Assembly: GCA_036426205.1 (NCBI GenBank)
Contig: WSYH01000269.1
Location: 1 to 64,000, forward strand
Direction of reading: 5' to 3'
Origin: Ascaphus truei
Taxonomy: Eukaryota > Chordata > Amphibia > Anura > Ascaphidae
Length of the DNA stretch: 64,000 bases
Shown: one piece after another, positions 3,909-58,053 of the stretch
Position numbering within the stretch: position 1 is the first letter of the stretch
How the letters are laid out: each line of letters begins with the position of its first letter
The notes under the pieces: generated by a model
Database searches by the model: none
What the model was told of the DNA's origin: nothing
The model's input: only the letters and a program-made list of their open reading frames with translations
Program-made: the position numbers and the translations under genes

Positions 3909-5340
3909 TTCTCCACCGAGAACGAATCTAATGAATCCTCAGAGTCAATTGTTCCTGCTAAGTGTATTATTGCCGCCAACAATTTTGATATCTTGGACGA
4001 AATCAATAAAGCCCAGGCTCATGTTACAAGGAGATTTAAGGTGCCAGAGGGACGGTTGTACGCTGCTCCGCATTTCCGCCACAAGATTCTTCTATGGGGA
4101 CATTCGTCTAGAGCGGCAGGTCATCCAGGCTACAAACGAACTGTAGATCTCATCAAACTGACCTTTTGGTGGCCTAAAATGAATAAGGACATTTTTGAGT
4201 TCACCAGGGCTTGTCCTGTCTGCGCCCAGAGCAAATCCGCCCGTCATAAACCTTCTGGTCTTCTCATGCCTCTTCCTATTCCAGAGCAACCTTGGAAACA
4301 TATCTCCATGGACTTTATTGTAGAGCTTCCCAATTCTAAAATGATGAATACGATCCTTGTGGTTGTTGATAAGTTTTCTAAGCATACCCACTTTATACCC
4401 CTCAAGGGTCTTCCTAATTCAGCTACTTTAGCCGACGTTTTTTCCAAGGAAATTTTCAGATTACACGGTGTACCCATTTCCATTGTTTCTGACAGAGGTA
4501 CTCAATTCATCTCTAAGTTTTGGCGAGCTTTTTCTCAAAGACTTGGCATTTCCCTTCTATTTTCCTCGGGTTATCACCCACAAACCAACGGGCAGACGGA
4601 GAGGATGAATTAGACGCTGGAACAGTATCTTAGATGCTTCGTGTCTGAATCGCAGGACAATTGGGTACACCTGTTACCCTGGGCTGAGTTTGCTATTAAC
4701 TCATTAAAAAACGAATCCACACAAGAGTCGCCGTTTTTCATTAACTATGGATTCCACCCCAGCAGTCTTCCCCTCTCCTCCCTCCCCTCTGGTGTTCCCG
4801 CAGCAGATTCTCACATTTCCAGTCTTCAGAATTCCTGGAAAAGGATCACAAAAGCTTTGCGAAATTCCGTTCTAAGACAAAAGACGCAAGCGGATCGGCG
4901 ACGCCAAGTGGGCCCTGAGTTCAAACCTGGAGACAGTTTGTGGCTATCTTCCAGGAATATAAACTCAAGACCCCTTCCCAGAAACTGGCCCAAAGGTTCT
5001 TAGGTCTTTTCAAAATTCTCGAAAGGATCAACCAGGTCGCATTCCGACTTGCACACTCTCCTACAATGAAGATCCCTTCGGTGTTCCATGTATCTTTACT
5101 GAAACCTGTGATCCAGAATCTTCATTTTCCAGACCGTCCTCGGAGGCCTAATCCTGTCATTATACAAGGACAACAAGAGTTTGAAATTCAATCCTTACTT
5201 GATTCTCATTGGTCCCGGGGCAAACTCCAGTTCCTCGTACACTGGAAAGGTTAAGGACCGGAGGAGCACTCCTGGATACCTTCTCACCACGTCCATGCCC
5301 CAACTCTCCTCAGGCAGTTCCGTTGAAAGTTCCCTCATAA
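3909..5340 (+). pseudogene. pol: gypsy integrase with C-terminal chromodomain, broken
   Basis: Integrase inserts the cDNA into chromosomes. In order: the HHCC zinc domain (HPGYKRTVDLI then CPVCAQSK, about 4125-4225); the DDE core with D in SMDFIVELP, D in VSDRGTQF and E in TNGQTERMN; the C-terminal domain with PGDSLWL; and a chromodomain near 5185-5300 with DSHWSRGKLQFLVHWKG and GPEEHSWIPS. The chromodomain identifies a chromovirus. An in-frame TAG lies at 4611-4613, a frameshift near 4940-4980, and a TAA in the chromodomain at about 5253, so the copy is dead. Confidence 0.92.
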
Positions 5341-7990: not shown

Positions 7991-8570
7991 CCCCGGAACC
8001 CTACACACAGACGGACCCCCCCACACACTGACTGACCCCCCCACACACTGACTGACCCTCCCCGGACCACCTCCACACACTGACGACCCCCCAGACCCAC
8101 ACACACTGACTGACCCCCCCAGACCCCCACACACACACGGACTGAACCCCCCCCAGACCCCCACACACACCACTGACGACCCCCCCAGACACCCCCACAC
8201 ATATGACTGACACAACCCAGACCCCCACAACAACTGAATGACCCCAGAGACCACACACATGACTGACCCCCAGAGACCCACACACATTGACTGAACCCCA
8301 GACCCCACACCCCACATGACTGAACCCCCCAGACCCCCACAACACTGACTGAACCCCCCAGACCCCCACACACATGACGACACCCCACACACTGACCTGA
8401 CCCCCCCAGACTCCCACACACACATGCATGACCCCCCCAGAACCCACACACACTGCCTGACCCCCCAGACCCCCACACACACTGACCCCCCCAGAGCCCA
8501 CACACACTGACTGACCCCCCCAGGCCCCACACAAGACCCCCCCACGACCCACAACACACACTCACAGTCA
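7960..8570. repeat. Degenerate tandem array, about 30-bp units
   Basis: Repeats of roughly ACACACTGACTGACCCCCCCAGACCCCC, about 20 copies with length variation. The long G/V/C-rich minus-strand reading frames here come purely from the repeat and are not genes. Confidence 0.9.
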
Positions 8571-9150
8571 CACGCACACTCAGTCACACACTCACAGTCA
8601 CACGTACACTCAGTCACACTCACAGTCACATGCACACTCAGTCACACTCAGTCACACGCACACTCAGTCACACTCACAGTCAGACGCACACAGTCCAGTC
8701 ACACATCACCAGTCAGACGCACACGCACAGCACACGACACAGCCACAGTCACACGCTCAGTCACACATGCACCCACTCAGTCACACGCACACTCTCAGTG
8801 CACACGCAACACTCAGTCGACACTCAGCACACGCACCACTCTCAGTCACCCGCACACTTCAGTCACCACGCACACTCTCAGTCACACGCACACTCTCAGT
8901 CACACGCACACTCTCAGTCACACGCACACTCTCAGTCACACGCACACTCTCAGTCACACGCACACTCTCAGTCACACGCACACTCTCAGTCACACGCACA
9001 CTCTCAGTCACACGCACACTCTCAGTCACACGCACACTCTCAGTCACACGCACACTCTCAGTCACACGCACACTCTCAGTCACACGCACACTCTCAGTCA
9101 CACGCACACTCTCAGTCACACACACACTCTCAGTCACACGCACACTGTCA
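8570..9150. repeat. 18-bp minisatellite
   Basis: Starts as irregular CACACTCAGTCACA repeats and becomes a regular array of CACACTCTCAGTCACACG from about 8872 to 9145, about 15 units. Because 18 is a multiple of 3, several frames stay open and give hexapeptide ORFs. There is no start context and no gene. It is too short and spacerless to be a CRISPR array. Confidence 0.95.
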
Positions 9151-16477: not shown

Positions 16478-18795
16478 CAGTGGCGGCCGCCTTTAGCTTC
16501 ATGCGGCCGTAGCGGCACAATTCTGATAACAGCGGGCAGATGCAGTATGTTTTTTTTTGTCCGGAATGTATTGCGGTATTTCAGCGCTCGTAATGTATTA
16601 GCATTTTATTATCGCTGTGTGCAATACTGCAATACCGTCTAAAAACTCAGGGGGGCGTTCGCGAGGTGTTGTCTTCAAAGTCTAATACTTTAGCAGTTCA
16701 ACCTACGTCAGTACACAGTCTGCATGCGTGCGCGCAGTAATTGTAAGTTTGCATATTTATACATGCATTTGCAGTGCTGTACTGTATGTCTCATTTGAAA
16801 ATTGTTGAAACGCATAGGCATGTGCTGTTACAGTATCACATTTCGGCATATACAGCGCTCTCCCCTCGCTCGCCCCCGCACACACACAGGATAATTTACT
16901 GCACTGCAGTATTTCAACTTCTTATCTTATACACAGTGCAGTACACCTCTCCCACACCATTCCTTTGAATGTGTGTCCTTCTGGTTTCAATCACATTCCT
17001 GCTTGATAGCTGATGATTACTGCGCATGCGCCTGTAAATTCACCACTGCTTGAATGCGAAATTTAAAAGGTGGGGACCAAAAAAAAATATATATATTTTT
17101 TTTTCTCCTAATTTTTTTTTTATTTTCTCCACAAACCTGCCTAGACCAACTTGATATTACGATATTCAAATCTGTGCTGTGGCTTTTGACTGCGACCCAG
17201 TGCGTTTGACTGCACATGGTTGATTTGTATGCTTTTTATGTACTGTATTTGGGGGTGTAGAGATCAAATTATTATGATGACCTGCCTTTTAAAATTATGT
17301 CATTTCTTTGAACTGCAGTACAGCTAATCCTTCATGCAGCTGTACCCTGTACCCCCCTCCCCCACGCACACACGCAAGGCTCGCTCAAGGATTTGAAACT
17401 TTTATCGACAGACACCTCTACAGAGGCATTCAGTTTCTGAAGCTTACCATTGTGTTTTTAATCCGTCCCTAGCCGAGCATCACCTCTCTGCTGCGCCTGC
17501 GTGTAATCCTCTTTGGGATGGGAGCTAGTTGATGATTACTGCGCATGACTCACCCATCCCCCCCCAACCCTTTGAGGCTTTGTTTACGGTAACGCTTTTG
17601 AAAATCCCTTCTCGAATTTGATATGTAAATCTGATTTGCACAGCACTGTGAGAATTGAGAGTTAAAATAACCATTATCTGATTCATGTTATTGATGCAGT
17701 AAATTACCACTTTTTGTCATTCTTTCTTTTTCTTTGGTGTAGGTGTGGGGGGGGGGAGTTGTTGTCAATGATTATGATTATCATGAATGTAAATAAATAT
17801 TTATTTTATTTTATCAGGAACAAAAAAAAACAATATAAATTTAATCATGAATAATACAAAATGCAGTCTTTATTAAGTTCTTCTGTCAGATGGAAATTGA
17901 GGGCCGGTGGATAATCATGAATAATGCACATTGATAATATTTTTAATTAATAATATATAATATATAATAATATATATATATAGTAATATAATTTTTTCCG
18001 TCTTTATCTTCTTCCTCATTCTGTGTACAGTAGTTCATTGAGAGAGGAGAGGTTTTGTGTACATCATGACTGCAGTTTAGATACTGTACACTTAACTGTT
18101 CAAACAGTTCACAGACTTTACACGATACCCCCCCCTCTCTCCCAGGCCATCCTTTTTTTCTGAAAAGACAAGAAAACAAAAAATTAGTACAGTTATGTGC
18201 ATACTGTATTATGACATTGTGTGCTGTGTAGTACTGTCAAACTACTCTATACTGGAACTACTGTATACTGTGACTACTGTTAAATACTTTGTAACCAGGT
18301 GGATGGTGCTGCTCTCTCTGGAAAGAAAAAAATTGAGCAGTTAGGTGCATACTGTATTATGGCATTGTGTACTGTATAGCTACTCCATATTGGACTACAG
18401 TATGCAGTTAGTACTGTCAAACTAGTCTATACTGGAACTACTGTATAGTCTTACTACTAGGAAAGAAAAAATCTGTGCCATACTTACCTGTATCATACTG
18501 TACTTACAATACTACAGTACAGTACTATACCATACTACCTTCCTGATGCTTGCCCATTACGCGCGATCACAATGGGCAACACAGTCGCAATATAGTCAAT
18601 ATATTTATTGCATCGTCCCACGGTGAGTACATCGTTCCAAAAACTCATTATGCCTTGCGCAAACTCATCCTTTTTAGAGGGTTTCACGACTTTTCGGATA
18701 TGGTCCTTCAGCTAATGCCAGACCATTTCGATAGGATTGAAGTCTGGCGATCTGTCATTGGAGGGGAAAAAAAAGGACAATTAGTTTAAGAGATA
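16478..18795. mobile_element. Outer Tc1/mariner-type transposon, left part (E1)
   Basis: Starts CAGTGGCGGCCG after TA. It is colinear with the inner copy E2 (18796 onward), at an estimated 80-85 percent identity by eye, through about 2.3 kb of non-coding DNA to transposase exon 5. It is interrupted at TA (18794-18795) by E2. Its continuation is found at 28240, where the intron 4 sequence resumes exactly. Confidence 0.85.
18535..18751 (-). pseudogene. E1 transposase, exon 5
   Basis: 217 nt, the same length as exon 5 of E2, preceded by the acceptor ...CAATGACAG. It encodes the third part of the DDE catalytic domain with SPDFNPIEMVWH. Here the catalytic glutamate is present, whereas E2 has lysine at that place. 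A TAG stop follows directly after MVWH, so this copy is dead. The two copies together show the ancestral protein was of the DD34E (Tc1-like) type. Confidence 0.85.
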
Positions 18796-19639
18796 CAGTG
18801 GCGGCCGATCTCAGTCTAAGACGGCTAGATCCGTGGCTCTCAGATTATCCCGGTTAGGTGCGTTTTTTTGTTGTTTTCGTCCGGAGTGAACTTTGTTATT
18901 TTCGCGCTCGTGATATTAGCATTTTATTCTCGATGTCTGCAATACTGCAATGCCGTGTAAAAACTCAGGGGGGCATTTGCAGCTGTTGTTTTGGAAGTCT
19001 AATACCTTCGCGGTTCAACCTACGTCAGTACACAGTCTGTAAATTTGCATATTTAAAGTATACATGCATTTGCAGTGCTGTGCTTCTGTACGGTATGTCT
19101 CATTTGAAAATTGTTGAAATGCATAGGCGTGTACAGTACTGTAACAGTGTCACATTTCGGCATATACAGCGCTCTACCCTCGCTCAGGATAATTAACTGC
19201 ACTGCATTGTATTTCAACTTCTTATCTTCTCTACAATGCAGTACATCTCTCCCACAGCATTCCTTTGAACGTGTGTCCGGTTTCAATCACATTCCTGCTT
19301 GGCAGCAGGAATTTACTGCGCATGGGCTTGTAACTTCACCCACCACTGCTTGCTTGCCTGAGTGAGTAACCAAAAAAAATAAAAAAAATATTTTATTGTC
19401 ATTTTTTTTTTCTCCACAAGCCTGCAAAAACCATCTTACTGTATTACGATATTCAATCAGTGCTGTAGCCTTTGACTGCGACCCTGTGCGTTTGACTGCA
19501 CATGGTTGATTTGTGTGCTTTTTACGTACTGTATTTGGGGGTGTATTATTATGATGAACTGCCTTTTGAAATTAAAGTATGTCTTTAGCGATGAACTTCA
19601 TGCAGCTGTACCCTGTAGCCCCCTCCCCCACGAACGCTA

Positions 19640-20645
19640 GCTCAAGGATTTGAAATTCCACAGAGTCGTTAATTTTCTGAATCTTGCAATTGTGTTCCTA
19701 ATCCGTCCATAGCCGACCTACAAAGCCTCACTGCGCCTGCGTGTAATTCTCTTTGAGATGGGAGCTAGCTGCTTACTGCGCATGAGTCACCCAACCCCCC
19801 CCTCTAAACAGAGTCATTAATTTTCTGAATCTTGCCATTATGTTCTGAATTTGTCCATATCCGAGCTACAAAGCCTCACTGCGCCTGCGTGTAATTCTCT
19901 TTGAGATGGGAAATTTGAGGCTTTGTTTACAGCAACGCTTTGGAAAATCCCTTCTCGAATTTGATTTGCACAGAGCATCACCTCTCTATGCGCCTATGTG
20001 TAATCCTCTTTCGGATGGGAGCTAGTTTACTCCTGCTCATGCGCCTGTAACTTCACCCACCACTGCTTGCTTGAGTGCCCCCCCCAAAAATTTTAATTAG
20101 GATTTTTTAACTGTTATTTTATCCACAAGCATGCAAAAACAATCTTGATATTACGATATTAAATCTGTGCGTTTGCCTGCACATGGTTGATTTGTGTGCT
20201 TTTTATGTACTATATTTGGGGGGGTGTAGGGATCAATTTACAGTATTATGATGAACTGCCTTTTGAAATTACTGTATTCTACAGTACAGTATGTTATTTC
20301 TTTGTAACTGCTGCACAACTAATCCTTCATCCCTTCCCCACGCACACACAAACTCTTATCGACAGACACTTCCACAGAGTCATTCATTTTCTGAACCTAG
20401 TTAGTCATTGTGTTTTTAATCCGTCCCTAGCCGAGCGTCAATCGTCTCACTGTGCCTGCGTGTACTCTAATTCTTTTAGAGATGGGAGCTTGCTGCTTTC
20501 TGCGCATGAGTCACCCAACCCCCTCTCTCCACAGAGTCGTTAATTTTCTGAATATTGCCATTGTGTTCTTAATCCGTCCATAGCCGAGCTACAAAGCCTC
20601 AGTGCGCCTGCGTGTAATCACCACACCCCCCCCCCCCACACCCTT
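19640..20645. repeat. Subterminal direct repeats of the transposon
   Basis: A segment of about 110-150 bp recurs at about 19655, 19800, 20365 and 20530, and in E1 near 17410. Its core is TTAATTTTCTGAAT..., then AATCCGTCCATAGCCGA and ACTGCGCCTGCGTGTAAT. Subterminal repeats often bind transposase; that role is inferred. Confidence 0.7.
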
Positions 20646-21051
20646 TGAGGCTTTGTTTACGGTAACGCTTTGGAAAATCCCTTCTCGATTTTGAAATGTA
20701 AATCCGATTTGCACAGCATTGTGAGAATTGAGAGTTAAAAAAAACCATTAACTGATTCATGTTGTTTTGTCATTCATTCTTATTCATTGGTGTACTGTAG
20801 GGGTGGGGGGGTTGTGGTTGTTGTAAATGATTATGACTAGCAGGAATGTGAATAAATATTTATTTTATTTTATCATCAGGACCCAAAAAATATAAAAATA
20901 ATCATGAATAATACATAATGCAGTCTTTATTAAGTTCTTTTGGCAGATTGAAATTCGATAATAATTTAGAAAACATTTGTAAAACATGGGGAAACATGAA
21001 TAATGCACATTTATAAGAATATTATTTAATAATATATACTGTAATGTACTG

Positions 21052-21099
<48 letters not shown>

Positions 21100-21133
21100 T
21101 TTTCCGTCTTTATCTTGTTCCTCATTCTGTGTA

Positions 21134-22024
21134 CAGTACTGCTGCGACACACTTTATTCGAGCAAATACCCAGTATGTACCTGGCAGATACCTGGAATGC
21201 GCCGCTCCTCACCTCTGACAAGCCCCGTTGCGTATGCCTTCCCAGCCATGGTTCATGCCTGGCTGACGATCGGCTGATCTGTTAAATGATAATGATTAGG
21301 ATTTAATAGGCTGCAATGCTTCGCGTGTCTACCAGATGGCATAAATTCATGAATTGTAATGCAGTATATATATATATATATATACTGTGCAGTATTGCAG
21401 CCAGCGGGAATAAAATGCTTCAATCCCTGCCTGGAAAATAACGCAATGCACTCGGGCAGAAAACAGTCACAAACCTCAATACACCCGAGTATACCCGAAT
21501 TCGTGGGACTAGCCGAGCTCGAATAAAGTGTGTCGNNNNNNNNNNNNNNNNNNNATATATATATATATATATATATATTATTTTTTCCGTCTTTATCTTG
21601 TTCCTCATTCTGTGTACAGTACTGCTGCGACACACTTTATTCGAGCAAATACCCAGTATGTACCTGGCAGATACCTGGAATGCGCCGCTCCTCACCTCTG
21701 ACAAGCCCCGTTGCGTATGCCTTCCCAGCCATGGTTCATGCCTGGCTGACGATCGGCTGATCTGTTAAATGATAATGATTAGGATTTAATAGGCTGCAAT
21801 GCTTCGCGTGTCTACCAGATGGCATAAATTCATGAATTGTAATGCAGTATATATATATATATATATACTGTGCAGTATTGCAGCCAGCGGGAATAAAATG
21901 CTTCAATCCCTGCCTGGAAAATAACGCAATGCACTCGGGCAGAAAACAGTCACAAACCTCAATACACCCGAGTATACCCGAATTCGTGGGACTAGCCGAG
22001 CTCGAATAAAGTGTGTCGCCAGTG
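21134..22024. mobile_element. MITE related to E2's right end, with false duplication
   Basis: A small element starting CAGTACTGCTGCGACACAC and ending ...GTGTGTCGCCAGTG, with TIR core CGACACACTTTATTCGAGC and TA flanks. The empty site is seen at 18020-18035 in E1. Its interior (about 21190-21360) matches the complement of about 28017-28239, the right end of E2, so it is probably a deletion derivative. The element appears twice, separated by an N run; the true length is about 420 bp. Confidence 0.75.
21536..21554. other. Assembly gap (19 N) between two identical segments
   Basis: About 450 bases left of the gap (about 21085-21535) recur right of it (about 21570-22018) without visible difference. 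The repeated unit begins in the same (AT)n run. This looks like two contig ends that overlap but were joined by a gap. Confidence 0.9.
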
Positions 22025-22497
22025 TACAGTAGTTCATTGAGAGAGGAGAGGTTTTGTGTACATCATTACTACTGTTTATATACTGTACATTTTTCTGTAC
22101 AAACAGATTAGACTGGACACAAAACCCCACCTCCCCCCAGGCCACCCTTTTTTCCTTAAACGACAAGAAAAAAAAAATTAGTGCAGTTATGTGCGTACTG
22201 TATTATGGCATTGTGTGATGTGTAGTACTACCGTAGACGGCTGGTGCTGATTTCTCTGGAAAGTAAAAAATTGAGCAGTTAGTAGGCAGTTACTGTAGTA
22301 CTGTCAAACTAGTCTATACTGGAATTACTGTATGCTCTGACTACTGGTAAATACTATGTACTGTAACCTGATGGCTGGTGCTGCTCTCTCTGTAAAGAAA
22401 AAACTGTAACTACTGTATACTCTGACTATTGGTAAAGAAAAAAATCTGTGCCATACTTACCTGTATCATACTGTACTTACAATACTACAGCACAGTA

Positions 22498-24208
22498 CTA
22501 CTTTCCTGATGCTTGCCCATTTCGCACGATGACAATGGGCAACACAGTGGCAATATGGTCTATATATTTATTGCAGCGTTCCACAGTGAGTACATCATTC
22601 CAAAAACTCATTATGCCTTTCAACAACTCGTCCTTTTTGGAGGGTTTCGCCACTTTCCAGATATGGTCCTTCAGCTGATGCCAGACCATTTTGATCGGAT
22701 TGAAGTCTGGCGATCTGTCATTGGAAAAAAAGGACAATTAGTTTAAGAGATACAGTACACAGTAAAAACTGTGGGAAACAAATGAGACACGGTTACCGCA
22801 CTTACTCCGCTGGCGTCTTCACCCAGTTGATACTACGCTCAAGGATATGCGCTGTTGACGCAGTGTGGTTCGGATCGTTGTCCTGGTAGAAGCGGTGACC
22901 ATTCGGGAACTCGCGTGTGATGTATTGCACTCTCAGGGACAATGTTGTCTTGGAAGAAAGCTTTATTCATGATTCCTATAGCAAGAAAAGAAAAGTGCTC
23001 AAAAAACTGCACAATAGTACAGTACAGTACATACAGTAAGGCTACACTAGTAAAGTACAGTGCATAAGGCTACATTATATTTCATATATTTTACCTTCAA
23101 AGATGACAATGCATCCTGGTCCATGCCTAGAGATGGCACCCCACACATGCAGCTTCACGTTGTGTTTTGGCCGCGGCTTCAAAGATATGTGGCCTTTTTT
23201 GTGGAATGCAATGCTTGCAAATCTCTCCAGCGACACAGTAGACTCGTCAGTGAAGATGCAATCCTGGAAAGTTTCCCCACTGTCGATCCATGCCTGGGCC
23301 TGGACCACTCTTTTGATTTTGTTTGCGTCCCTTATCATGGGGTACGCTCTGTAATGACAAGGAATAAATAATTTTAGCGGTACAGTAGTTTCCTAAACAA
23401 TACTTTTACCTCCTGTACTGTCCAGTACTAACCTCACACGTCCATATTTCCATCCAATGCTGCATCTCATCTTCTTTATGCTGGTCTCGGATACAGCGAG
23501 ATTGTGATTTTCCTGCAGAGTGTATTTGACCCTTAATGCACTCCTCTCATCATTCTCCTCACTTATTTTGTCAACCAGAAGAGTGGTCTCCCTACAATGT
23601 AAAGAAAAACATTCCGGTAAGTAAAAATATTAGAGACAGTACTGTAGATCAAGAGGATACAATATATTGTTCTATTAATACAGTATGCAGCAATATAAAA
23701 CTGTTGTAATATAAATATAAATATACAAAATATATATACTGTTGTAATATAAATATACAAAATATAAATACTGTTGTAATATAAATATAAATATACAAAA
23801 TATATACACTGTTGTAATATAAATATACAAAATATATATACTGTTGTAAAATAAATATAAATATACAAAATATATATACTGTTGTAATATAAATATAAAT
23901 ATACAAAATATATTCACTGTTATAATATAAATATACAAATTATATATACTGTTGTAATATAAATCTACAGAAATAACAAAAATATTAGATACAGTACTGT
24001 AGATGTACAGTACATTTTTGGATCAATTTTTTTTTTTAAAGTTTTATAAATATACTTACGCGTTATTTACCCTTTGTGCCCTTTTGCGTTCTCTGTTTTT
24101 TCCGTGTGCATGATAGCTCACGGTGGTTGCTGGCACAACGAGGCCAAAAGTAGCTAACATCTCCTTAATTCGCATGCTGAGATCCTTGGAAATCTTTTTA
24201 ACAACCAT
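22498..24208 (-). CDS. Tc1/mariner-type transposase, five exons, one frameshift
   Basis: DDE transposase that would cut and paste the 9.4-kb element. Exons (minus): 24060-24208, 23433-23591, 23095-23348, 22806-22975 and 22498-22714. Every intron is GT-AG with a pyrimidine-rich acceptor, and phases fit at all four junctions. Predicted length is about 315 residues, normal for the superfamily. Exon 1 is basic and DNA-binding-like. Exon 3 has the first catalytic aspartate in FTDESTV and [12 protein letters not shown]. Exon 4 has [11 protein letters not shown]. Exon 5 has [11 protein letters not shown]. Two defects: exon 4 lacks 2 bp relative to E1 (170 against 172 nt), which shifts the frame near 22920, and the third catalytic residue is K instead of E. 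The start ATG at 24206-24208 precedes MVVKKISKD; a TATAAATA box lies about 100 bp upstream. Confidence 0.85.
23690..23965. repeat. AT-rich minisatellite in transposase intron 1
   Basis: Repeated CTGTTGTAATATAAATATA plus AATATACAAAATATA in alternating unit lengths, seven or so copies. It explains the Y/I-rich minus-strand ORFs here. Confidence 0.9.
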
Positions 24209-24447
24209 TGTTGCGAGTAGAAAGAAATACAAACACAAGAATGTATATTCGATGTTTAGTCGCTGTGTATTCAATGTGCAGTGAATCTACAAAATGGATG
24301 GTGTATTTATACGGTAATGACTCACATTAGAGTACGCCCACTTTCAACACCTGTACCTCGGCGCCATGCATAAAAGGTTACACACTTTGCATAGCCCACC
24401 ACTCGAACTTGAACTCTTCCAGATACTGCATTGTGCCAGCTGCTTCC
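24209..24447. promoter_or_regulatory. Bidirectional promoter between transposase and BEN-like gene
   Basis: The 239 bp between divergent start codons contain TATAAATA on the minus strand (24304-24311) for the transposase and CATAAAAGG on the plus strand (24369-24377) for the BEN-like gene. An AP-1-like TGAGTCAT (24317-24324, minus) lies between. Divergent TATA boxes fit two oppositely transcribed genes. Activity is inferred. Confidence 0.65.
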
Positions 24448-25374
24448 ATGGAGCAAACCCGATTCTACGGACGCAGGAACCCACTCGCCTCTGCCGTGCC
24501 TGTCATGCAGAAAAAGCAAAAGGCGGTTGCCGTTTCCACGCCAAGGCAAAAGCGACAGGCTAAGGCCAATAAAGAAAACCTTCTGCTGACCCCAAAGGCT
24601 AAGGGTTTTCATAGACGTCAGCCTTATTATGTCAAGAAGATATACGGTGATGTACTCTCGACGCAAAACGATTGGCAGCCAACCCATCGAATCCGCAGAC
24701 CACTTCCTCACATACGCTTCGACGACTCTGCCGCCGCTGTCCCGGAAATCTTCAGCCAGTCTTCTCCACCCCTCATCCTCGACGCTGTCGCCGCCCTCCC
24801 AGAAACCCACAGGCCATCTTCTCCGGTTCTATCCGATGACGCTGCCGCCTCTGTAATCCACGGGTCACTTTCTCCTTTGCTCTTAGACGACTCTGCTTCT
24901 CGCCCGGAAATCCAAAGGTCACTTTCTCCATCCTTCTTCGACGACGCTGCCGCTTCTCCTCTACCAGATATCCACAGGTCACCTCCTCCACCCTTCTTCG
25001 ATGTCGCTGCCGCTTCTCTCCATGGAACCCCCATCTCATCCTCCGTTGCACCCATCCACCCAGATGTCCACACGCCATGCACAAGAAGCAGCTCGTTAGA
25101 CCGGATGCTGAATGGGATAAGTGTGGATCTCCCCGGGAACTTTATTGTGCTAGCAAAGATAGATCTACTTCTGGAGACCATGTTAAATGTGGAGCAACGG
25201 ATGCTACATATGGATCAACGGATGATATATATGGATCAACGGATGCTAGATATGGATCAACAGATGGATCGACGGATGGAGAAGATAGAGGCTGACATAG
25301 CGGGTATACATTGTTTGCTCGGTGTTAATGCCCCTGTTTCCCCGACGCCGGAGCAGGGGGTGACGTGGTTGTAA
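24448..25374 (+). CDS. Coiled-coil protein with KEN-like box and SP repeats (BEN-like gene, first part)
   Basis: 308 residues from the ATG at 24448, in good context (TTCCATGG) and 72 bp after a TATA box; the longer frame starts at a TTG and is less likely. Residues 18-50 are basic and contain NKENLLLTPKAK, which resembles a KEN degradation box. About residues 87-200 are six imperfect repeats of some 20 residues, pattern DDAAAS-PEIHRSLSP, rich in SP/TP sites that proline-directed kinases could use. Near the C-terminus a run of heptads (QRMLHMD, QRMIYMD, QRMLDMD) predicts a coiled coil for oligomerisation. The frame ends at 25374, but the -1 frame continues as coding-like sequence (NGSIDPLPSPSASPPPEDVV) to 25457. 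One frameshift may therefore separate this from the next ORF. Function unknown; nuclear DNA-binding partner inferred. Confidence 0.6.
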   Translation: MEQTRFYGRRNPLASAVPVMQKKQKAVAVSTPRQKRQAKANKENLLLTPKAKGFHRRQPYYVKKIYGDVLSTQNDWQPTHRIRRPLPHIRFDDSAAAVPEIFSQSSPPLILDAVAALPETHRPSSPVLSDDAAASVIHGSLSPLLLDDSASRPEIQRSLSPSFFDDAAASPLPDIHRSPPPPFFDVAAASLHGTPISSSVAPIHPDVHTPCTRSSSLDRMLNGISVDLPGNFIVLAKIDLLLETMLNVEQRMLHMDQRMIYMDQRMLDMDQQMDRRMEKIEADIAGIHCLLGVNAPVSPTPEQGVTWL

Positions 25375-25460
25375 TGAATGGGAGCATCGACCCCCTTCCA
25401 TCACCAAGCGCATCCCCTCCACCAGAAGATGTAGTGTATATGTATGCCATTGAGTAAGAC

Positions 25461-25937
25461 ATGACAACCCCTTCAAGACCCCACCAAGAGACAACACGGC
25501 GACCAAGACCGGAGAAAAGCCTCCTCCCAGACAACCTACCATCGTCCGTCGCCTCAAGCACAACCGCTCGCAGAAGACCTACATTCGCTCGCATCGATAC
25601 GGTGCCCGACATCACCCTGCGCGATCTGCCATCGGCGCTCAGGGAGAAGTATAGGGAGATGAGTGCTGGTGCACCCCACAAGTATGCCTTGTTACTTTTT
25701 AAGCACCATGTTCCCTACTCGTTGTACTGCGACTGGGCCTTCAAAGTGAACTACGATGGAAATCTCGTAAAAAAGGTGCTTCCTGACAATTTAAGAAAGA
25801 ACATTCTGGATGAAATGCGGCGCTTTTATCCAATTACAGATCCTGTAATGAAAGGCGTTCGAGACTGCATTAATGGCGTTTTGCGCCATGCAAGGAATCG
25901 GCCATGGACGGACAATGTGGTGGACTTTCTGGTTTAA
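25461..25937 (+). CDS. BEN-domain-like protein (second part)
   Basis: 158 residues. The first 60 are basic and disordered. From about residue 75 the pattern ALLLFKHHVPY, a glycine turn, KKVLPDNLRKNILDEMRRF, YP and GVRDCINGVLRHARN matches my memory of the BEN domain: a leading L-x-x-LF helix, then K-x-LDP-x-x-x-x-x-I, then W/V-x-x-CI-x-x-IN-x-x-x-R. BEN domains bind DNA or chromatin. An in-frame TAA (25455-25457) precedes it, so it either starts at 25461 or is the end of one gene with the preceding coiled-coil ORF, broken by small indels. AATAAA lies at 26011-26016, 74 bp after the stop. It could instead be another helical DNA-binding fold. Confidence 0.6.
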   Translation: MTTPSRPHQETTRRPRPEKSLLPDNLPSSVASSTTARRRPTFARIDTVPDITLRDLPSALREKYREMSAGAPHKYALLLFKHHVPYSLYCDWAFKVNYDGNLVKKVLPDNLRKNILDEMRRFYPITDPVMKGVRDCINGVLRHARNRPWTDNVVDFLV

Positions 25938-26078
25938 TCACGGGAACTGTAAGACCATACTGTTGTGCTGTACTGTACAGTACATGTTTTGACCTGCTGA
26001 ACTTACTGTAAATAAAGGAGATGTTTTGACCTGCTGTACTGTATTTAACTTACTGTTTTAACTTGCTGTACACACACA

Positions 26079-26189
26079 CAGGACCTGCACAATTCCAGTC
26101 CCTGAGGGCCGCAAACAGGCACGGTTTTCAAGGTTGTCCTGAAAACCGGGCCTGTCTGCTGCCCTCGAGGACTGTACTGGTGCAGACTG
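26079..26189. mobile_element. Short hAT-type MITE
   Basis: Begins CAGGACCTGCACAATTCCAGT and ends with a diverged inverted partner, ...ACTGTACTGGTGCAGACTG. It is a shorter relative of the MITE at 33257. No clear 8-bp target duplication remains. Confidence 0.6.
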
Positions 26190-26834
26190 TTTTGCACACC
26201 ATCCCACTGTATATGTTTTGACTTTAATAAAGGAGATGTTGCGTTTTGTATATTTTATTAATAAAGAATTTGTTTTTAAAACATGTGACTGTAAACCATA
26301 CTGACTGACTGTAAATGTTTTTACTTTCTATACATAAATGTTTTCACTAATGTAGTAGTAAACCATACACCTGTTGATGTTTTGAATTGCTGTGCACTTA
26401 AAATGTTTCTATATTGTACAGTATTTGTAAATAAATGTTTTTGTACTTACTCCACCAATAAAAGAACATGTTGATTTGTTTTACATTGTTCCATTGGCTC
26501 CTTTGCTACTGTAACAAAATACAGTGTTTCTAGTATGTACACTACTGTCCAGGCACACTGTACAGTATACTGTAGGCATGCTCAGTACAAGAGTATTAAA
26601 ACATATAGAAGACACATACAGTACTGTACTGTACTGTATGTACTTGCACTATATAGAAGACACATACTGTATGTACAGTACTGTAATACATGTAGAATAA
26701 ATGCATAGTTTTTATTTTTTTCGGGATTATTACACAGTATACTGTTTATAAAAAAGTATTGTATACTGTACGGCCGGAAAACATCAGCATAGTGTACATC
26801 AGCCACTAAACTGTAGACTCCGGTACGTGGGTTT

Positions 26835-27827
26835 TTAAATCCGATTCAGCAATGTGCAGGCATTGTTACACAAAGCGATATTATCCATCGAAATCCCTCC
26901 ATTAGCCGTTTTCTTTTCTGAGGAAAAACAAAAAGAAAAGTTTTACTGTAATGGTTTAAAGAAGTTCCCAGCCAGTCCCACCAATAATTTTCTCGGGGGG
27001 GCGTCTCCTGTTCACATGCGCACGCGCCTATCGTCGATGTAATGACACGCATACTGTATCCGTTTCAAGAAGGTTCCAATGCGCATGCGCCTAGCGTTTC
27101 ACCAATAGTTCAGTATCTGCAGTACAGTACTGTAGAAGCCTCTCAGCCAATAATATTGCTTACAGGAGAATCACTTGACTTTTGAATCGCACCGATATTG
27201 ATACTGTATTGTCAAAATAAAAAAAACACAGAAAATAATACGGCAGCAATACTCACCATAGAATTTCCCATTCAGCTGGCGCTGGCGCCGGTACACTGCC
27301 AGTCCAGCGTTCTTGATCATCCACGTCGATAGTTTGCAGCGGGACTTGTCCACCTGTAGTCAGCTGATGAGGCTGGAAATTGCTTAGGTACATGCAAGCT
27401 TGTTCAAAACTGCACGCGAAATCCGGCTCAGGCTCAGTGTTGTCACTGACAGTGGGACCGTTATTGGAAGCCGGTGCATTGCTTGGCAGCGACTGTCGTT
27501 TCTTAGTTGGTTTTAACATGACCCTTCGCCTTTTGCCGTCTGCATGATCAAAGATACAGGAAAAACCGGTGATACACACCAATACCCTCCAACAAATTGT
27601 GGCTCAATATGATAAAAACAGGGATCGCTACATAACCTTTTCCTTATTGCACGCTTCCACGTATGAGGAGCTGGCGAAAATTTGTAAAAGTCATAGTTTT
27701 CGATAAAATACTGATACATTTGCACAACTGTTGCCATCTTATCATCTGTTGCATTATTTGCGGCCCATATCAAATACGCGTAACTTCTGTCGGGTTTTTG
27801 GAAAGCGGGCTGCACTTGAACACTCAT
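26835..27827 (-). CDS. Forkhead-like winged-helix protein in the transposon
   Basis: Exon 1 (27257-27827) starts at an ATG in strong context (CCGCCCGCCATGAG). Residues 11-85 look like a forkhead DNA-binding domain: helix 1 KPDRSYAYLIWAA, helix 2 around VVQMYQYFIENYDFY, recognition-helix segment HTWKRAIRKRL in place of W-x-x-SIRHNLS, and wing GGYWCV in place of G-x-YW. It then changes frame near 27560-27580: the continuation (DGKRRRVMLKPTKKRQ, then an acidic, proline-rich tail with TEPEPDF) is in another frame, so there is one small indel. The exon ends at TATG|GTGAGT; a strong acceptor (TTTTTCCTCAG) at 26918 opens a last exon, giving a stop at or soon after the junction. AATAAA is at 26711-26716 on this strand. 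It lies between the ends of the 9.4-kb transposon. Its role, such as promoter binding, is unknown. Confidence 0.7.
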
Positions 27828-28016
27828 GGCGGGCGGCGGGTCTCTGGAGAATACTGTAACCGAAACTGGTCTTTGTCTTTCTTTAATATGAAAAGCCTAA
27901 ATTGATACATTTTTGAAACCTCTTCCTTCAGTCTCAAGGCCAAGTTACAATAGCACACTGTGGTATCTTTTTTAAACGAAACACCTGCAAGTCGACACAT
28001 TACTGAAGCGCATGCG

Positions 28017-28239
28017 CATTACAATTCATGAATATCTGCCATCTGGTGGACACGCGAAGAATTGCAACCTATTAAATCCGAACCATTCTCAATAAACGCA
28101 TCAACCGCGCGTCAACCGCACATGACCCGTGGCTGAGAACGCAAAATGAATGCGGCACGCTCCATGTGAAGTGCGTCGCATTCCAGGAAAAAGCCAGGGA
28201 AAAACCGGCGATGTGTTAGACTCAGATGTGCCGCAGCAG
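28017..28239. repeat. Right terminal region of E2
   Basis: Upstream of the forkhead-like gene and ending in the right TIR. On the complement it matches the MITE at 21134 through GGATTTAATAGG, CTTCGCGTGTCCACCAGATGG and ATTCATGAATTGTAATGC. This ties the forkhead gene's 5' flank to the transposon family. Confidence 0.7.
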
Positions 28240-28888
28240 TACAGTACACAGTAAAAACAGTGGGAAAAAATAAGACACGGTTACCGCACTTACTCCGCTG
28301 GCGTCTTCACCCAGTTGGTACCGCGCTCAAGGATATGCGCTGTTGACGCGGTTTGCTTCGGATCGTTGTTCTGGTAGAAACGGTGACCATCCGGGAACTC
28401 ACGTGTGATTTATTCCACAATCTCAGTTACAATTTTCTCTTGGAAGAAAGCTTTATTCATGATTCCTATAACAAGAAAAGAAAAGTGCTCAAAAAACTGC
28501 ACACTAGTACAGTACAGTGCGTAAGGCAAAAGCGTGTGACATACATTTTACTGTACCTTCAAAGATGACGATGCATCCTGGTCCACGCCTAGAGATGGCA
28601 CCCCACACATGCATCTTCACTGGGTGTTTTGGACGCGGCTTTATAGATATGCGACCATTTTTGTGGAATGCAAAGGTGGCAAATATCTCCAGCGAAACAG
28701 TAGACTCATCAGTGAAGATGCAATCCTGGAAAGTTCCTCCACTGTCGATCCATGCCTAGACCTGGACCACTCTCTTGACTTTGTTAACGTCCCTTATCAT
28801 AGGGTACGCTCTGTAATGACAAGGAATTAATAATTTTAGAAGTACAGTACAGTTTCTTAAACAACACCTTTACCTCCTGTACTGTCCA
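28240..28888 (-). pseudogene. Outer transposon E1, right part: transposase exons 4 and 3
   Basis: Resumes E1 exactly where it was cut at 18795, in intron 4. Exon 4 (28294-28465, 172 nt, in frame but with one TAA) has FYQNNDPKQTA. Exon 3 (28557-28810, 254 nt, the same length as in E2) has FTDESTV and [12 protein letters not shown] plus one TAG. Splice sites match E2. Exons 2 and 1 and the right end are missing: E1 similarity ends near 28888 in intron 2, where unrelated repeat DNA begins. Confidence 0.85.
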
Positions 28889-29103
28889 GAAAACCCGTTA
28901 CATGTGGATAATATTAATTTTGCCCATTTCTGTATTGTATGTGTTAGGGGGCGGGGGAGGGGATGTGTGTTGTATATTGCTATGTTTATTGGGGGCAATT
29001 GTCCCCAATAAACATGCTATTTGCCTTAACCCCTTCATTGCCTTAGCGGATAGCCGCTAAGGTAATGAAGCTGCTTTAATGTGTTTTTATTAATAGTGTG
29101 CGG

Positions 29104-34961: not shown

Positions 34962-35600
34962 TCACTTCAAAATAGGGTTAGGTAACACATTTTCTGGCTG
35001 TGTAGCAACCCCATTCACATCCTGAACATTATTGCTAGCAGTGACTAGAGTAGGATCTTCCCATTGGGCGCTCTTAAAATTAATAGGACTGACCCCCAAG
35101 TCCAGCAAATCATCCTCCTTCTCTGTGCTAGTACTAGGCTCTTCACTATTGTCAACGGGGTTGTCCTCTACTAACACCGGCAAAGGGCAGTCATTTTGAT
35201 GTTTCTCTTCCACCTTACAACCCTGGTCACTCTCCAAATCAAACTCAGAAAATGGAAATACATGTTCCTCACTAGTTTGACCCTTTTCTGATGAGCATTG
35301 GACTGCCTTCTCTTTTAATGACCACAACTCTAGAAAGTTGGGGAAATCTCTACCGAGTACCACATCAAGGTCTAATCTGGGTACTACCCCCACCAGGTAA
35401 TTTAGGGTACCACACTGGGTTTCAATATTTACCTCAGCTGTGGGATATTCCCTTTTATCACCATGGATGCAAATAATTTCCATCTTCTGTATATTATCTA
35501 TTTTCACGTTCGGTATTACAGGCTTTGCTACTAAGGTGACCATGCTTCCTGAATCAAGCATTGCTCTATACATTTTCCCATTCACCATCACATAGCACAA
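34962..35600 (-). pseudogene. Gmr1-like gypsy aspartic protease and linker
   Basis: 212-residue open stretch. Near its start AMLDSGSMVTLV is a retroviral-type aspartic protease active site (D-S-G). LDVVLGRDFPNFLEL is the second conserved strand of the same domain. The rest is an acidic, low-complexity linker (EEPSTSTEKEDDLLDLG) before integrase. The ORF begins at an internal Met; the upstream reading joins Gag by a frame change. Confidence 0.8.
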
Positions 35601-52890: not shown

Positions 52891-54030
52891 TTAATCATAT
52901 GCAACTCTAGTGGTAGAATGTCCCACTCGCTGACTCCTGCGAGTCTCTTCTGCAGTGTCTTCCTCTTGGGAGATGCTATCATGGGTTTGAGACCCTGACC
53001 CTATCATAAGAGGTGAACCAGTCTCTACAAAGTCTCTGGAAGGGACAAAGCTCTGGCTTCTTGGGTCAAGGGGACGGCTTGTTGAAGCCACTGGTGAAGG
53101 TACTTGGGGCATTGGCCCATTACCCGATGCTTCCTCCCAAAAGTTTCCGTTGGAGTTGGTGGAGGTTTCTTACAAAGGATCTTGGTTTGGTTCTATGACT
53201 GAAGCTGGAGTCTCTGCGGATTCCCCTGGCTCACTGGCCACTGCTGTTGTCTCGGGTTTGGGGGTCACTGCCCCCACTTGAAGAATGGGCAGCATGACTG
53301 CAGTGCCAGACCTTTACCCTGCCACCGGCGTCTCAAATTCTCTAGACAGGGAGGCCCGGCTTCTGTGACTCTACCTCAAAGGGACCGTCTGCTAGCTTGG
53401 GTTTGCCGGGGGCTCCTAGATTCCTCAGGAGAATGGCGTCTCCAGGCCAAAGTTCCCGGAAGCAGACCTTGTGGTCATATCTCTGCTTGTTGCAAGCATT
53501 TAGTTTTGCAGTGGCTTTCTCAGCCAACTTGTATGCTCTGTTAAGGCTATCTTGGAGCCGTTTCACATATTTGTAGTGAGTCATGTTGGGTACCCCATCA
53601 GTATATACCCAGAGATGGATGTCCACAGGTAGTCATGCCTCTCACCCGAACATCATGAAATACAGTGTGAATCCCGTGGATTCGTGCCTGGTGCAGTTGT
53701 ACACATGCACTAGCGCTTCGACGTGCTTGCTCCATTCGGCTTTCTGGGAGCCCTGTAGGGTGCCTAGCATGTCAAGTAGAGTTCGGTTGAACCTCTCCAG
53801 CAGAGCGTCTCCCTCTGGATGGTATGGAGTGGTTTGAGACTTTTTGATGTTCAGCAAGTTGAGAAGCTCTTTAATCAACTTGCTCTCAAAGTCTCTCCCT
53901 TGGTCGGAGTGCATTGGATTCGGCAAGCCGTAGTGGATGAAATATTTCTCCTATATTTGGCCACTATTCAAGCTTTCTGATCCTTGGTTGGGAAAGCTTG
54001 GGCGTATCGGGTGTAGTGATTGGTCACTAC
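52891..54030 (-). pseudogene. Gypsy integrase core, C-terminal domain and tail
   Basis: Minus strand from about 54030: RYAQAFPTKDQ, PNPMHSDQGRDF with the second catalytic aspartate, YHPEGDALLERFNRTLL with the glutamate, then the C-terminal domain (YDHKVCFRELWPGDAILLRN) and a proline/serine tail ending QRVGHSTTRVAYD. Frameshifts lie near 53640 and 53930. The element is cut at about 54030 by the Penelope block. Its upstream half (zinc domain, RNase H) is at 59690-60735. Confidence 0.88.
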
Positions 54031-54035
54031 CTGGC

Positions 54036-55382
54036 ACTAAACATACACAATTTAGAAATAGGTCCATTTTTTGTCCATCCTTTTCAAAGGGTCCTCATTT
54101 ACAAACATACGAACGGCTTGTAGAGCAGGATTTGCAGGCCTTGGCTAAAGGCTACATGTTCACTGCTCCCTCTTTTGATAACCTATCTAGAGTGGATAGG
54201 ATGAATCTGAATATACTAAAAAAGAAATCCGATATCATTATAAAAAATGCGGACAAAGGGGGAGCAGTGGTCATCATGCACACATCAGCATATCATGCAG
54301 AAGCACTTAGACAATTGTCAAATATACAGGCATACTGCAAATTGTACAAAGACCCCACTCAAATGTACCTAAGGGAAATTTATGATCTGTTAGATCTGGG
54401 CAGAGAGTTAGGAGTGATCAACAATCGTGAGTCAACCTATTTGTACAATTCCGTTCCGGTCGTGCCTATCTTTCACCATCTCCCAAAGATCCACAAGACT
54501 CTGGTCTGCCCTCCAGGCAGACCCATTATATCGAGTATTGGATCTTTGGGAGATGATCTATCTAGGTACGTCGATTATTTCTTACAAACTTTAGTCAAAG
54601 AATTACCGGCTTATCTTAGAGACTCCGCAGATTTGCTCCAAGATATTCAAAAAATCACTTGGCTCAAAGGTTACACTTGGGTTACCCTTGATGTAACTTC
54701 TTTATACACAATAATTGATCACACTTTGGGCACAAGGGCTATCAGTCACTTTCTTAATCACTCTAATTTGAATATGGCACAAATCACTTTCTTGTTAGAT
54801 TCAGTCACTTTTTTATTACAGCACAACTACTTTATGTACTATGCACAGTTTTATTTACAGTCACAAGGCACAGCCATGGGCACGTCATTTGCACCCTCAT
54901 ACGCGAACCTCTTTATGGGATTTTGGGAATCTACCCACATTTTCGGTGATCACAATCCCTTTAGAGATAATATTATTTTTTATCGTCGCTTTATTGACGA
55001 CTTATTAATCATTTGGAAGGGGGACACCGACACTTTACACGAGTTTTTTGAATATCTTGGAGCAAAGACATACAATTTAAAATTCACACATTGTTACAGT
55101 GACTCACAGATTGATTATTTAGATCTTCATCTATATATAGATGTTGGACAACAAATTCAGACCAGCATCTATAGGAAAGCAAATTCCAAAAACTCTCTGC
55201 TCAGATCAAACAGTGCCCACCCGAGACCCCTGATTAGGAATACCCAAAGGCAATATTTAAGATTAAGGAGACTATGCTCCACTGATGAGTCCTTCTTGGC
55301 ACAAGCTGATGAATTGAAGAGCAGGTTTAGAGAGCGTGACTATGATGAGGGGACCTTGAGAATGCCTTCCAAAATGCCCTAA
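54036..55382 (+). CDS. Penelope-like element reverse transcriptase
   Basis: About 450 open codons of PLE RT after the gypsy junction; the open frame begins in gypsy sequence, so the true start is not shown. Motifs in order: KNADKGGAVVIM, PVVPIFHHLPKIHK, PPGRPIISSIGS, motif A LDVTSLYT, QGTAMGTSFAPSYANLFMG, and the catalytic box RRFIDDLLIIWKG. A thumb-like region with DYLDLHLYI and RLRRLCSTDESFL follows. This is the telomerase-related RT type of Penelope elements. The frame closes at 55382 (SKMP), where related proteins continue to the zinc ribbon and nuclease; those are present but frameshifted downstream. RT is the best-preserved large protein here. Confidence 0.9.
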   Translation, partial: TKHTQFRNRSIFCPSFSKGPHLQTYERLVEQDLQALAKGYMFTAPSFDNLSRVDRMNLNILKKKSDIIIKNADKGGAVVIMHTSAYHAEALRQLSNIQAYCKLYKDPTQMYLREIYDLLDLGRELGVINNRESTYLYNSVPVVPIFHHLPKIHKTLVCPPGRPIISSIGSLGDDLSRYVDYFLQTLVKELPAYLRDSADLLQDIQKITWLKGYTWVTLDVTSLYTIIDHTLGTRAISHFLNHSNLNMAQITFLLDSVTFLLQHNYFMYYAQFYLQSQGTAMGTSFAPSYANLFMGFWESTHIFGDHNPFRDNIIFYRRFIDDLLIIWKGDTDTLHEFFEYLGAKTYNLKFTHCYSDSQIDYLDLHLYIDVGQQIQTSIYRKANSKNSLLRSNSAHPRPLIRNTQRQYLRLRRLCSTDESFLAQADELKSRFRERDYDEGTLRMPSKMP

Positions 55383-57348: not shown

Positions 57349-58053
57349 GTGCTCTGGCGCTGTTTCATAGATGACGTCATATTCGTTTGGTCTGGCAGTC
57401 AGGTACAGCTAGAGTTATTTTTTGTATATTTAAACTCTAATGATAGGGATTTGAAATTTACCTTTAACCACCAGAAGGAACGTATAGAATTTTTAGACCT
57501 CGAGATTTATATTAGTAACAATAAAATAGAAACTAAAACATTCTTTAAGTCTGTCCAGGCTAATAACTACCTTAGGGCAGACAGCCAGCATAACCCTAGC
57601 TGGATCCGGAATATTCCTAAGGGTCAGCTCACCCGCCTCAAGCGAAACTGTTCAAATCAAGAGGAGTTTGCGCTTCAGGCGAGTGAGCTTAAAGACAAAT
57701 TCCGTGATAGAAGTTACCCAGAACATCTACTTGAGGCAGCTTCCCTTCAGGTGGAGACAATTGAGAGACACACATTGTTAGAATATAAAGATAAAAATAA
57801 TAAAAATGCATTGAATCAAAATAATGGAGTCTCTTTCATAACACAGTATAACGAGATGGCGCCAAAAATTCGTCAAATTTTTAACAAACATTGGCCCATG
57901 CTCTTGTGCGATACTACTCTATCTAAATGTCTCCCGGAGAAACCAAAAATAATCTTTACCAAAGCACCAAACATCAAGATGCGTCTAGCACCTAGCTGTC
58001 CATTAGACAATTCAAAATCTAAAATTAATAGCAATAAAAAGTTTTTTTTTTAA
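57349..58053 (+). pseudogene. Second Penelope-like element: C-terminal RT
   Basis: Reads from the catalytic box (FIDDVIFVWSG) onward: DLKFTFNHQ, IEFLDLEIYI, the thumb with IPKGQLTRLKRNCS, and a linker with FNKHWPMLL and PKIIFTKAPNIK. RT motifs before FIDD are absent; sequence upstream is non-coding element DNA, so an internal deletion joins the 5' region to the late RT. The frame ends in a T-run at 58041-58050, a frameshift relative to the nuclease. Confidence 0.85.

Follow-up and report, generated by a model that had tools for sequence, protein, structure and literature searches.

We analysed 64,000 nucleotides of Ascaphus truei DNA (contig WSYH01000269.1 of assembly GCA_036426205.1, positions 1 to 64,000, referred to here as the window), in which a sequence-only reading had placed a Tc1/mariner-type transposon carrying three genes at 18796-28239. 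We found this interval to be a single copy of the Tc1/mariner superfamily (copy B), inserted at a TA within copy A, an older member of its own family, and the claimed coordinates, TA flanks, imperfect terminal inverted repeats and interrupted older copy resuming beyond were all exact (Table 1). The TA target-site duplication, the terminal inverted repeats and a DDE transposase of IS630/Tc1 type place the element in that superfamily. Copy B begins with CAGTGGCGG (18796) and ends with CCGCAGCAG (28239), and the agreement between its two 27-nt ends was reached by 5 of 200,000 pairs of 27-mers drawn at random from the element, one member of each being reverse-complemented. The sequence broken by copy B aligns with an unbroken homologue inside the element (22726-22775), revealing the pre-insertion site. 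Copy A opens with the same left end, TA followed by CAGTGGCGGCCG, while its right half is gone; with everything past 28889 lost, it is uninformative about the two genes that accompany the transposase. The length of 9.4 kb given by the sequence-only reading holds for the coordinates and fails for the true size: 21072-21535 and 21555-22018 are 100% identical on either side of 19 N characters, and because this 464-bp duplication is most likely an assembly artefact, copy B measures about 8.96 kb, a nested small element included.

Table 1. Positions of the element, its genes and associated features in the window.
Feature	Positions	Strand	Remarks
Outer older copy A, left part	16478..18793	.	same family
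Transposon copy B	18796..28239	.	TA at 18794-18795 and 28240-28241
Left terminal inverted repeat	18796..18822	+	matches right end at 20/27 positions
464-bp exact tandem duplication around N gap	21072..22018	.	likely assembly artefact
Nested non-autonomous relative	21139..22024	-	about 403 bp once the assembly duplication is removed; both end regions
Transposase exon 5	22498..22714	-	third catalytic position K instead of E
Transposase exon 4, second catalytic D	22806..22975	-	frameshift in copy B
Transposase exon 3, first catalytic D	23095..23348	-	
Transposase exon 2	23433..23591	-	splice signals and comparison with other copies
Transposase exon 1	24060..24208	-	lacks 39 nt present in 9 other copies
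238 bp separating the divergent starts of transposase and gene 2	24209..24446	.	presumed shared promoter
Gene 2, encoding peptide repeats, a heptad-repeat stretch and a conserved C-terminal domain	24447..25937	+	frameshift and stop in copy B
Gene 2 conserved C-terminal domain (called BEN-like by the sequence-only reading)	25461..25937	+	
Noncoding interval, gene 2 to forkhead gene	25938..27252	.	
Forkhead-domain gene	27253..27827	-	Pfam PF00250; frameshift after domain core in copy B
Right terminal inverted repeat	28213..28239	-	matches left end at 20/27 positions; right-flank TA elsewhere 16/16
Outer copy A beyond the insertion, with transposase exons 3 and 4	28242..28889	.	remainder lost

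The transposase gene lies on the minus strand and comprises five exons with splice signals, both in copy B and in nine other copies from elsewhere in the genome, where all 36 acceptors had AG and 34 of 36 donors had GT; we infer the exon joins from these signals and the reading frame. All three genes are broken in the window copy, and its transposase is dead because 39 nt are deleted from exon 1, exon 4 carries a 2-nt frameshift and the catalytic E is replaced by K. An uninterrupted 329-amino-acid frame is retained in two of the nine five-exon copies (L011 and L022 among the loci described below). The DDE catalytic domain resembles by sequence that of Sleeping Beauty (E 2.2e-13 over residues 102-295), which differs in having two more residues between the second D and the E, and which is a single intron-free transposase open reading frame (ORF). 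PF13358 was found in many relatives of the transposase, including one from Xenopus at 51.4 bits; the window's exon 3 alone scored 16 bits, below the cut-off.

An earlier DD34E label for this transposase was not borne out, since the spacing from the second D to the E was 32 in all readable five-exon copies (six of nine, with E as the third residue in four and K in two) and in seven relatives. Those seven are the readable ones among 13 database rows of a clade whose 14 rows come from frogs, fishes and unnamed sequences and which has 100/100 support and stands beside rows with a spacing of 34 or 35. Members such as Xenopus laevis LOC121396371 and a Polypterus TCB1-like protein share the transposase sequence and, where readable, the spacing, the comparison with these hosts covering their transposase proteins. 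This vertebrate-containing DD32E branch of Tc1/mariner transposases (relatives P0004, P0006-P0009, P0012, P0013) had no match under that name in the literature searched. Intron 1 also holds a 70-bp minisatellite (23692-23975).

Gene 2 encodes a product of roughly 460-470 amino acids, made up of a peptide repeat present in about five copies, a 7-residue repeat encoded by a 21-nt array, which by eye suits a coiled coil, and a C-terminal domain. That this is one gene is shown by the single open frame in Ascaphus truei database proteins and in copies L014 and L024; among 771 candidates the protein had three relatives, all from Ascaphus truei. We found nothing to uphold the BEN label, as there was no Pfam BEN match, no BEN structure was matched, and a profile built from three BEN sequences scored no better on gene 2 than on shuffled sequences, which were equally high in 192 and 267 of 500. 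The spacing of some residues is reminiscent of BEN by eye, and the two may be remotely related. The structure model of the gene 2 product was poor (47.5 on the predicted local distance difference test, pLDDT), and a fold search with it gave nothing significant.

The third gene is a forkhead-domain gene, with a PF00250 match at 49.2 bits against a curated cut-off of 27 (E 5.8e-13) and sequence matches to solved forkhead structures (best E 2e-9); its structure model was similarly poor (pLDDT 49.3), with no significant match in the fold search. Among 126 candidates the protein had two relatives, both from Ascaphus truei, and its recognition helix, WKRAIRKRL in place of the canonical WQNSIRHNL, is nearly the same in both. 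The gene 2 and forkhead proteins of the window are 71-85% identical to the Ascaphus truei database proteins, copies within the host genome being about 95% alike in DNA.

To place these genes in their genomic context, the host genome (2.82 Gb) was searched, yielding 2,981 first-look candidates for gene 2, 2,580 for the right end and 4,054 for the forkhead gene, all unscored; the best 40 places were scored in each search and, the window itself aside, had 94-98% identity. The copy number is thus at least about 40 and may run to thousands. We extracted 10 kb at each of 20 of the 39 gene 2 places other than the window (three near a contig start were skipped and 16 not taken). All 12 tested parts were in order at four of these 20 loci (L015, L022, L025, L027, with the forkhead gene partial in L022), and all five transposase exons were present at nine. 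The forkhead gene was in place over at least 535 of its 575 nt at 15, partial at two (L022 and L021, the latter cut by the slice) and absent from its place at three (L023, L028 and L017, where the match came from another copy). Open frames remained for gene 2 at two or more of the 20 loci and for the forkhead gene (193-219 amino acids) at five or more, these counts being lower bounds because the scan covered part of each locus.

A second set was anchored on the right end, taking 16 of 39 other places, to avoid selecting by gene 2. The forkhead gene was present at 15 of these 16 loci, the remaining one having 278 of 575 nt, and of the 10 loci examined further gene 2 occurred at nine and transposase sequence at five, a count that includes one locus with transposase at the expected gene 2 position and comes from fixed slices that may miss shifted copies. 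In the samples examined, retention of the extra genes equals or exceeds that of the transposase. The search for end-anchored copies lacking them, carried out at the right end, came out in favor of the claim that three genes belong to the element, as did their same order in other copies. A TA flanked all 16 right ends and, with L023 as the one exception, 10 of 11 left ends; it was present on both sides of all seven two-ended copies, which were 5.4-9.3 kb long, the two shortest without transposase exons. These results also bear on whether gene 2 and the forkhead gene make up a transposon in its own right, lodged within a one-gene element, or were captured by chance in the window copy. The family does nest within itself in the window, yet gene order is identical in other copies, and in 24209-28016 just one exact inverted pair of 11 nt has arms separated by over 1 kb, and these arms lie within the two genes, a result compatible with shorter ends. 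No second set of long ends was found, and we regard this explanation as highly improbable.

Comparisons at synonymous sites point to purifying selection on the genes, with open-frame copies chosen for some comparisons and CpG decay still included. For the forkhead gene the ratio of nonsynonymous to synonymous differences (pN/pS) was 0.24-0.30 against the intact copies L011, L026 and L027 (p below 0.01), and comparison with an older copy in L017 gave 0.49 (p 0.019). That copy (L017 58-2237) is more diverged (81% for the forkhead gene, 87% for the right end) and lies inverted beside a young one. For gene 2, pN/pS was 0.57 between L014 and L024 (p 0.014), and five pairs compared for its C-terminal domain alone gave values from 0.26 to 1.00, with significance in one pair. 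The ratio of nonsynonymous to synonymous substitution rates (dN/dS) for transposase exons 3 and 5 was 0.20 between L011 and copy A. A test for conservative substitutions was positive for the C-terminal domain of gene 2 (4 of 1000) and for both parts of the forkhead gene (13 and 26 of 1000), and not positive for the N-terminal and repeat part of gene 2 (204 and 198 of 1000) or for transposase exon 3 (75 of 1000). In a polymorphism test singletons dominated (nonsynonymous to synonymous ratio 1.9-3.9 for the forkhead gene and transposase, with no neutral expectation to set it against), and shared variants were too few. The C-terminal domain of gene 2 differed by a median of 3.4% over 153 copy pairs; judged by this divergence, the element copies are a young burst.

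The noncoding parts of the element are rich in one short motif. Copy B contains 53 occurrences of TACAGTA or its reverse complement TACTGTA in 6.4 kb of noncoding sequence (8.2 per kb) and none in 3.0 kb of exons, compared with 8.1, 17.2 and 35.5 expected under models of order 2, 3 and 4, and the observed number exceeded 200 of 200 simulations at each order. The densest kilobase of the window (26001-27000, 15 motifs) falls in the stretch that separates gene 2 from the forkhead gene. Seven other copies together had 274 motifs in 36.0 kb of noncoding sequence and none in 17.9 kb of exons, and the 16.0 kb outside them contained 29, of which 21 adjoin L014, where another element end lies; since the copies are related, these counts are not independent. 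Copy A has 17 in 2,964 nt, where 2.25 are expected (order 2). Homing of the element into its own motif was considered and rejected: copy B and the nested element each sit in a TACAGTA, but none of the seven two-ended copies elsewhere does. Of all TA sites, 96 of 736 in copy B and 33 of 240 in copy A lie in the motif.

We interpret copy B as a decayed copy of a many-copy, three-gene Tc1/mariner element whose two extra proteins would bind its own TACAGTA-rich DNA and so sustain its expression and mobility, a reading to which we give a probability of about 60%. As in the rest of the family, the transposase would cut the element ends and insert at TA. The forkhead and gene 2 proteins are both predicted to bind DNA, and one of them would recognize TACAGTA, more likely gene 2, because it joins a conserved domain to variable peptide repeats, as do the VANC proteins of VANDAL transposons. 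Binding might then counter silencing or activate the presumed divergent promoter between the transposase and gene 2.

The analogy with VANC is one of layout. The VANDAL21 study reports that VANC21 binds YAGTATTAY, a motif dense in noncoding parts and subject to rapid turnover, and that VANC proteins combine conserved domains with variable regions often bearing tandem peptide motifs (PMC5735166). The Arabidopsis VANDAL21/VANC system resembles the element described here as a multi-gene DNA transposon with a dense, fast-turnover noncoding motif and a repeat-bearing variable protein. It differs in being a plant element for which binding is proven, compared with an excess of motifs alone in Ascaphus. 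VANDALs are Mutator-like elements; the transposase here is of Tc1 type. By this analogy, the dense noncoding motifs suggest that the extra proteins may recognize the element itself, and regulation by them is plausible. We consider more tentatively, and with odds clearly against it, that VANC-like self-recognition evolved here independently, with a variable gene 2 and a captured, re-purposed forkhead protein reading TACAGTA arrays and thereby marking copies for expression against silencing.

Several observations weigh against the main interpretation. The motif excess declines as the model order rises, and outside the element the window still holds 25 motifs in 51.6 kb, compared with an order-2 mean of 8.4. 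At that outside rate (0.48 per kb), the absence of motifs from 3.0 kb of exons does not amount to depletion. Canonical forkhead sites show no enrichment, and the non-canonical recognition helix means that the target of the forkhead protein cannot be guessed, while gene 2 matched no Pfam family. Selection on the C-terminal domain of gene 2 was non-significant in four of the five pairs, including the one with a ratio of 1.00, as it was for the forkhead domain alone against L017 (pN/pS 0.51, p 0.19). The loci, coming from the best 40 places per search, are a non-random sample that favors young copies and under-represents older ones. Copy A preserves 1 of 11 motifs of copy B on the left and 5 of 8 on the right, the corresponding shares for 7-mers in general being 17% and 39%, so that motif positions, as far as these alignments indicate, largely turn over between the two copies. 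Together with the 10 of 52 spacings that equal 5, in (TACTG)n-like runs, this turnover is what would be expected if the excess consisted merely of drifting short repeats and the extra genes acted elsewhere, for example on host genes. A control scan likewise identified a more strongly over-represented 7-mer in other blocks of the window, within an ordinary tandem repeat. On the other side, 27 of the 53 motifs stand alone, with no neighbor within 12 nt, and are scattered across 9 kb, and similar densities recur in the other copies and in copy A. We hold drift to be rather unlikely, slightly more so than the explanation raised by the nested element.

This nested element is a non-autonomous relative that retains about 236 bp of the right end (about 75% alike) and about 90 bp of the left end, far beyond the inverted repeat, and contains no TACAGTA, a sign that mobility may not require the motif in cis. 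Its empty site is present in copy A at 18023-18032, and as its flanks share the seven bases TACAGTA, its target duplication is either TA alone or as long as seven bases. Such long retained ends are consistent with extra proteins that serve as structural machinery, binding the end regions and aiding transposase assembly without regulating expression, much as the Harbinger Myb-like protein and TnpA of Spm/CACTA bind ends and help their transposases assemble. The retention of both genes alongside the transposase with low nonsynonymous change would fit this explanation as well; relatives in the superfamily, however, function with the transposase alone, and we judge a purely structural role to be possible and, on balance, unlikely.

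Whether structural or regulatory, accessory genes are unusual for the superfamily in animals. The statement of the sequence-only reading that Tc1/mariner elements normally carry a single transposase ORF stands as the usual case for animal members, and this element with its two additional genes does not follow it. The further proposal of a new kind of transposon was overtaken by the TBE and Tec elements of ciliates, which have three ORFs with one reversed (PMC4724952 for TBE, PMC7325037 for Tec). They are likewise Tc1/mariner elements, and differ in having a DD34E transposase and extra ORFs for a zinc-finger/kinase and a 22-kD protein (TBE) or a site-specific recombinase (Tec). Pfam and spacing checks found neither zinc-finger/kinase or recombinase ORFs nor DD34E in the Ascaphus element. 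The three-gene layout is thus known from ciliates, and the forkhead-bearing version is a variant of it. In titles and abstract openings, we found no Tc1/mariner element linked to forkhead, BEN or accessory genes, and scans of viral contigs found no relative. Tc1/mariner elements are prized for needing a single protein, and a likely vertebrate lineage that has retained two more genes over many copies, one with a DNA-binding-type domain, would offer a natural test of why helpers are gained, whether for silencing evasion, target choice or transposition. The motif arrays render the silencing idea directly testable, and a transposon-borne forkhead domain would be a route for transcription-factor genes to move within a genome.

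Elsewhere in the window, 366-1223 and 3993-4613 are pieces of a Ty3-type retroelement with gag-like (PF03732) and integrase (PF17921, PF00665) frames, and 34962-35600 contains a frame resembling a retroelement aspartyl protease, below Pfam cut-offs. Two reverse-transcriptase-type frames, at 53937-55382 (with a weak RVT_1 match) and 57349-58053 (with none), resemble those of Penelope elements. An 18-bp tandem array of about 35 units occupies 8557-9150.

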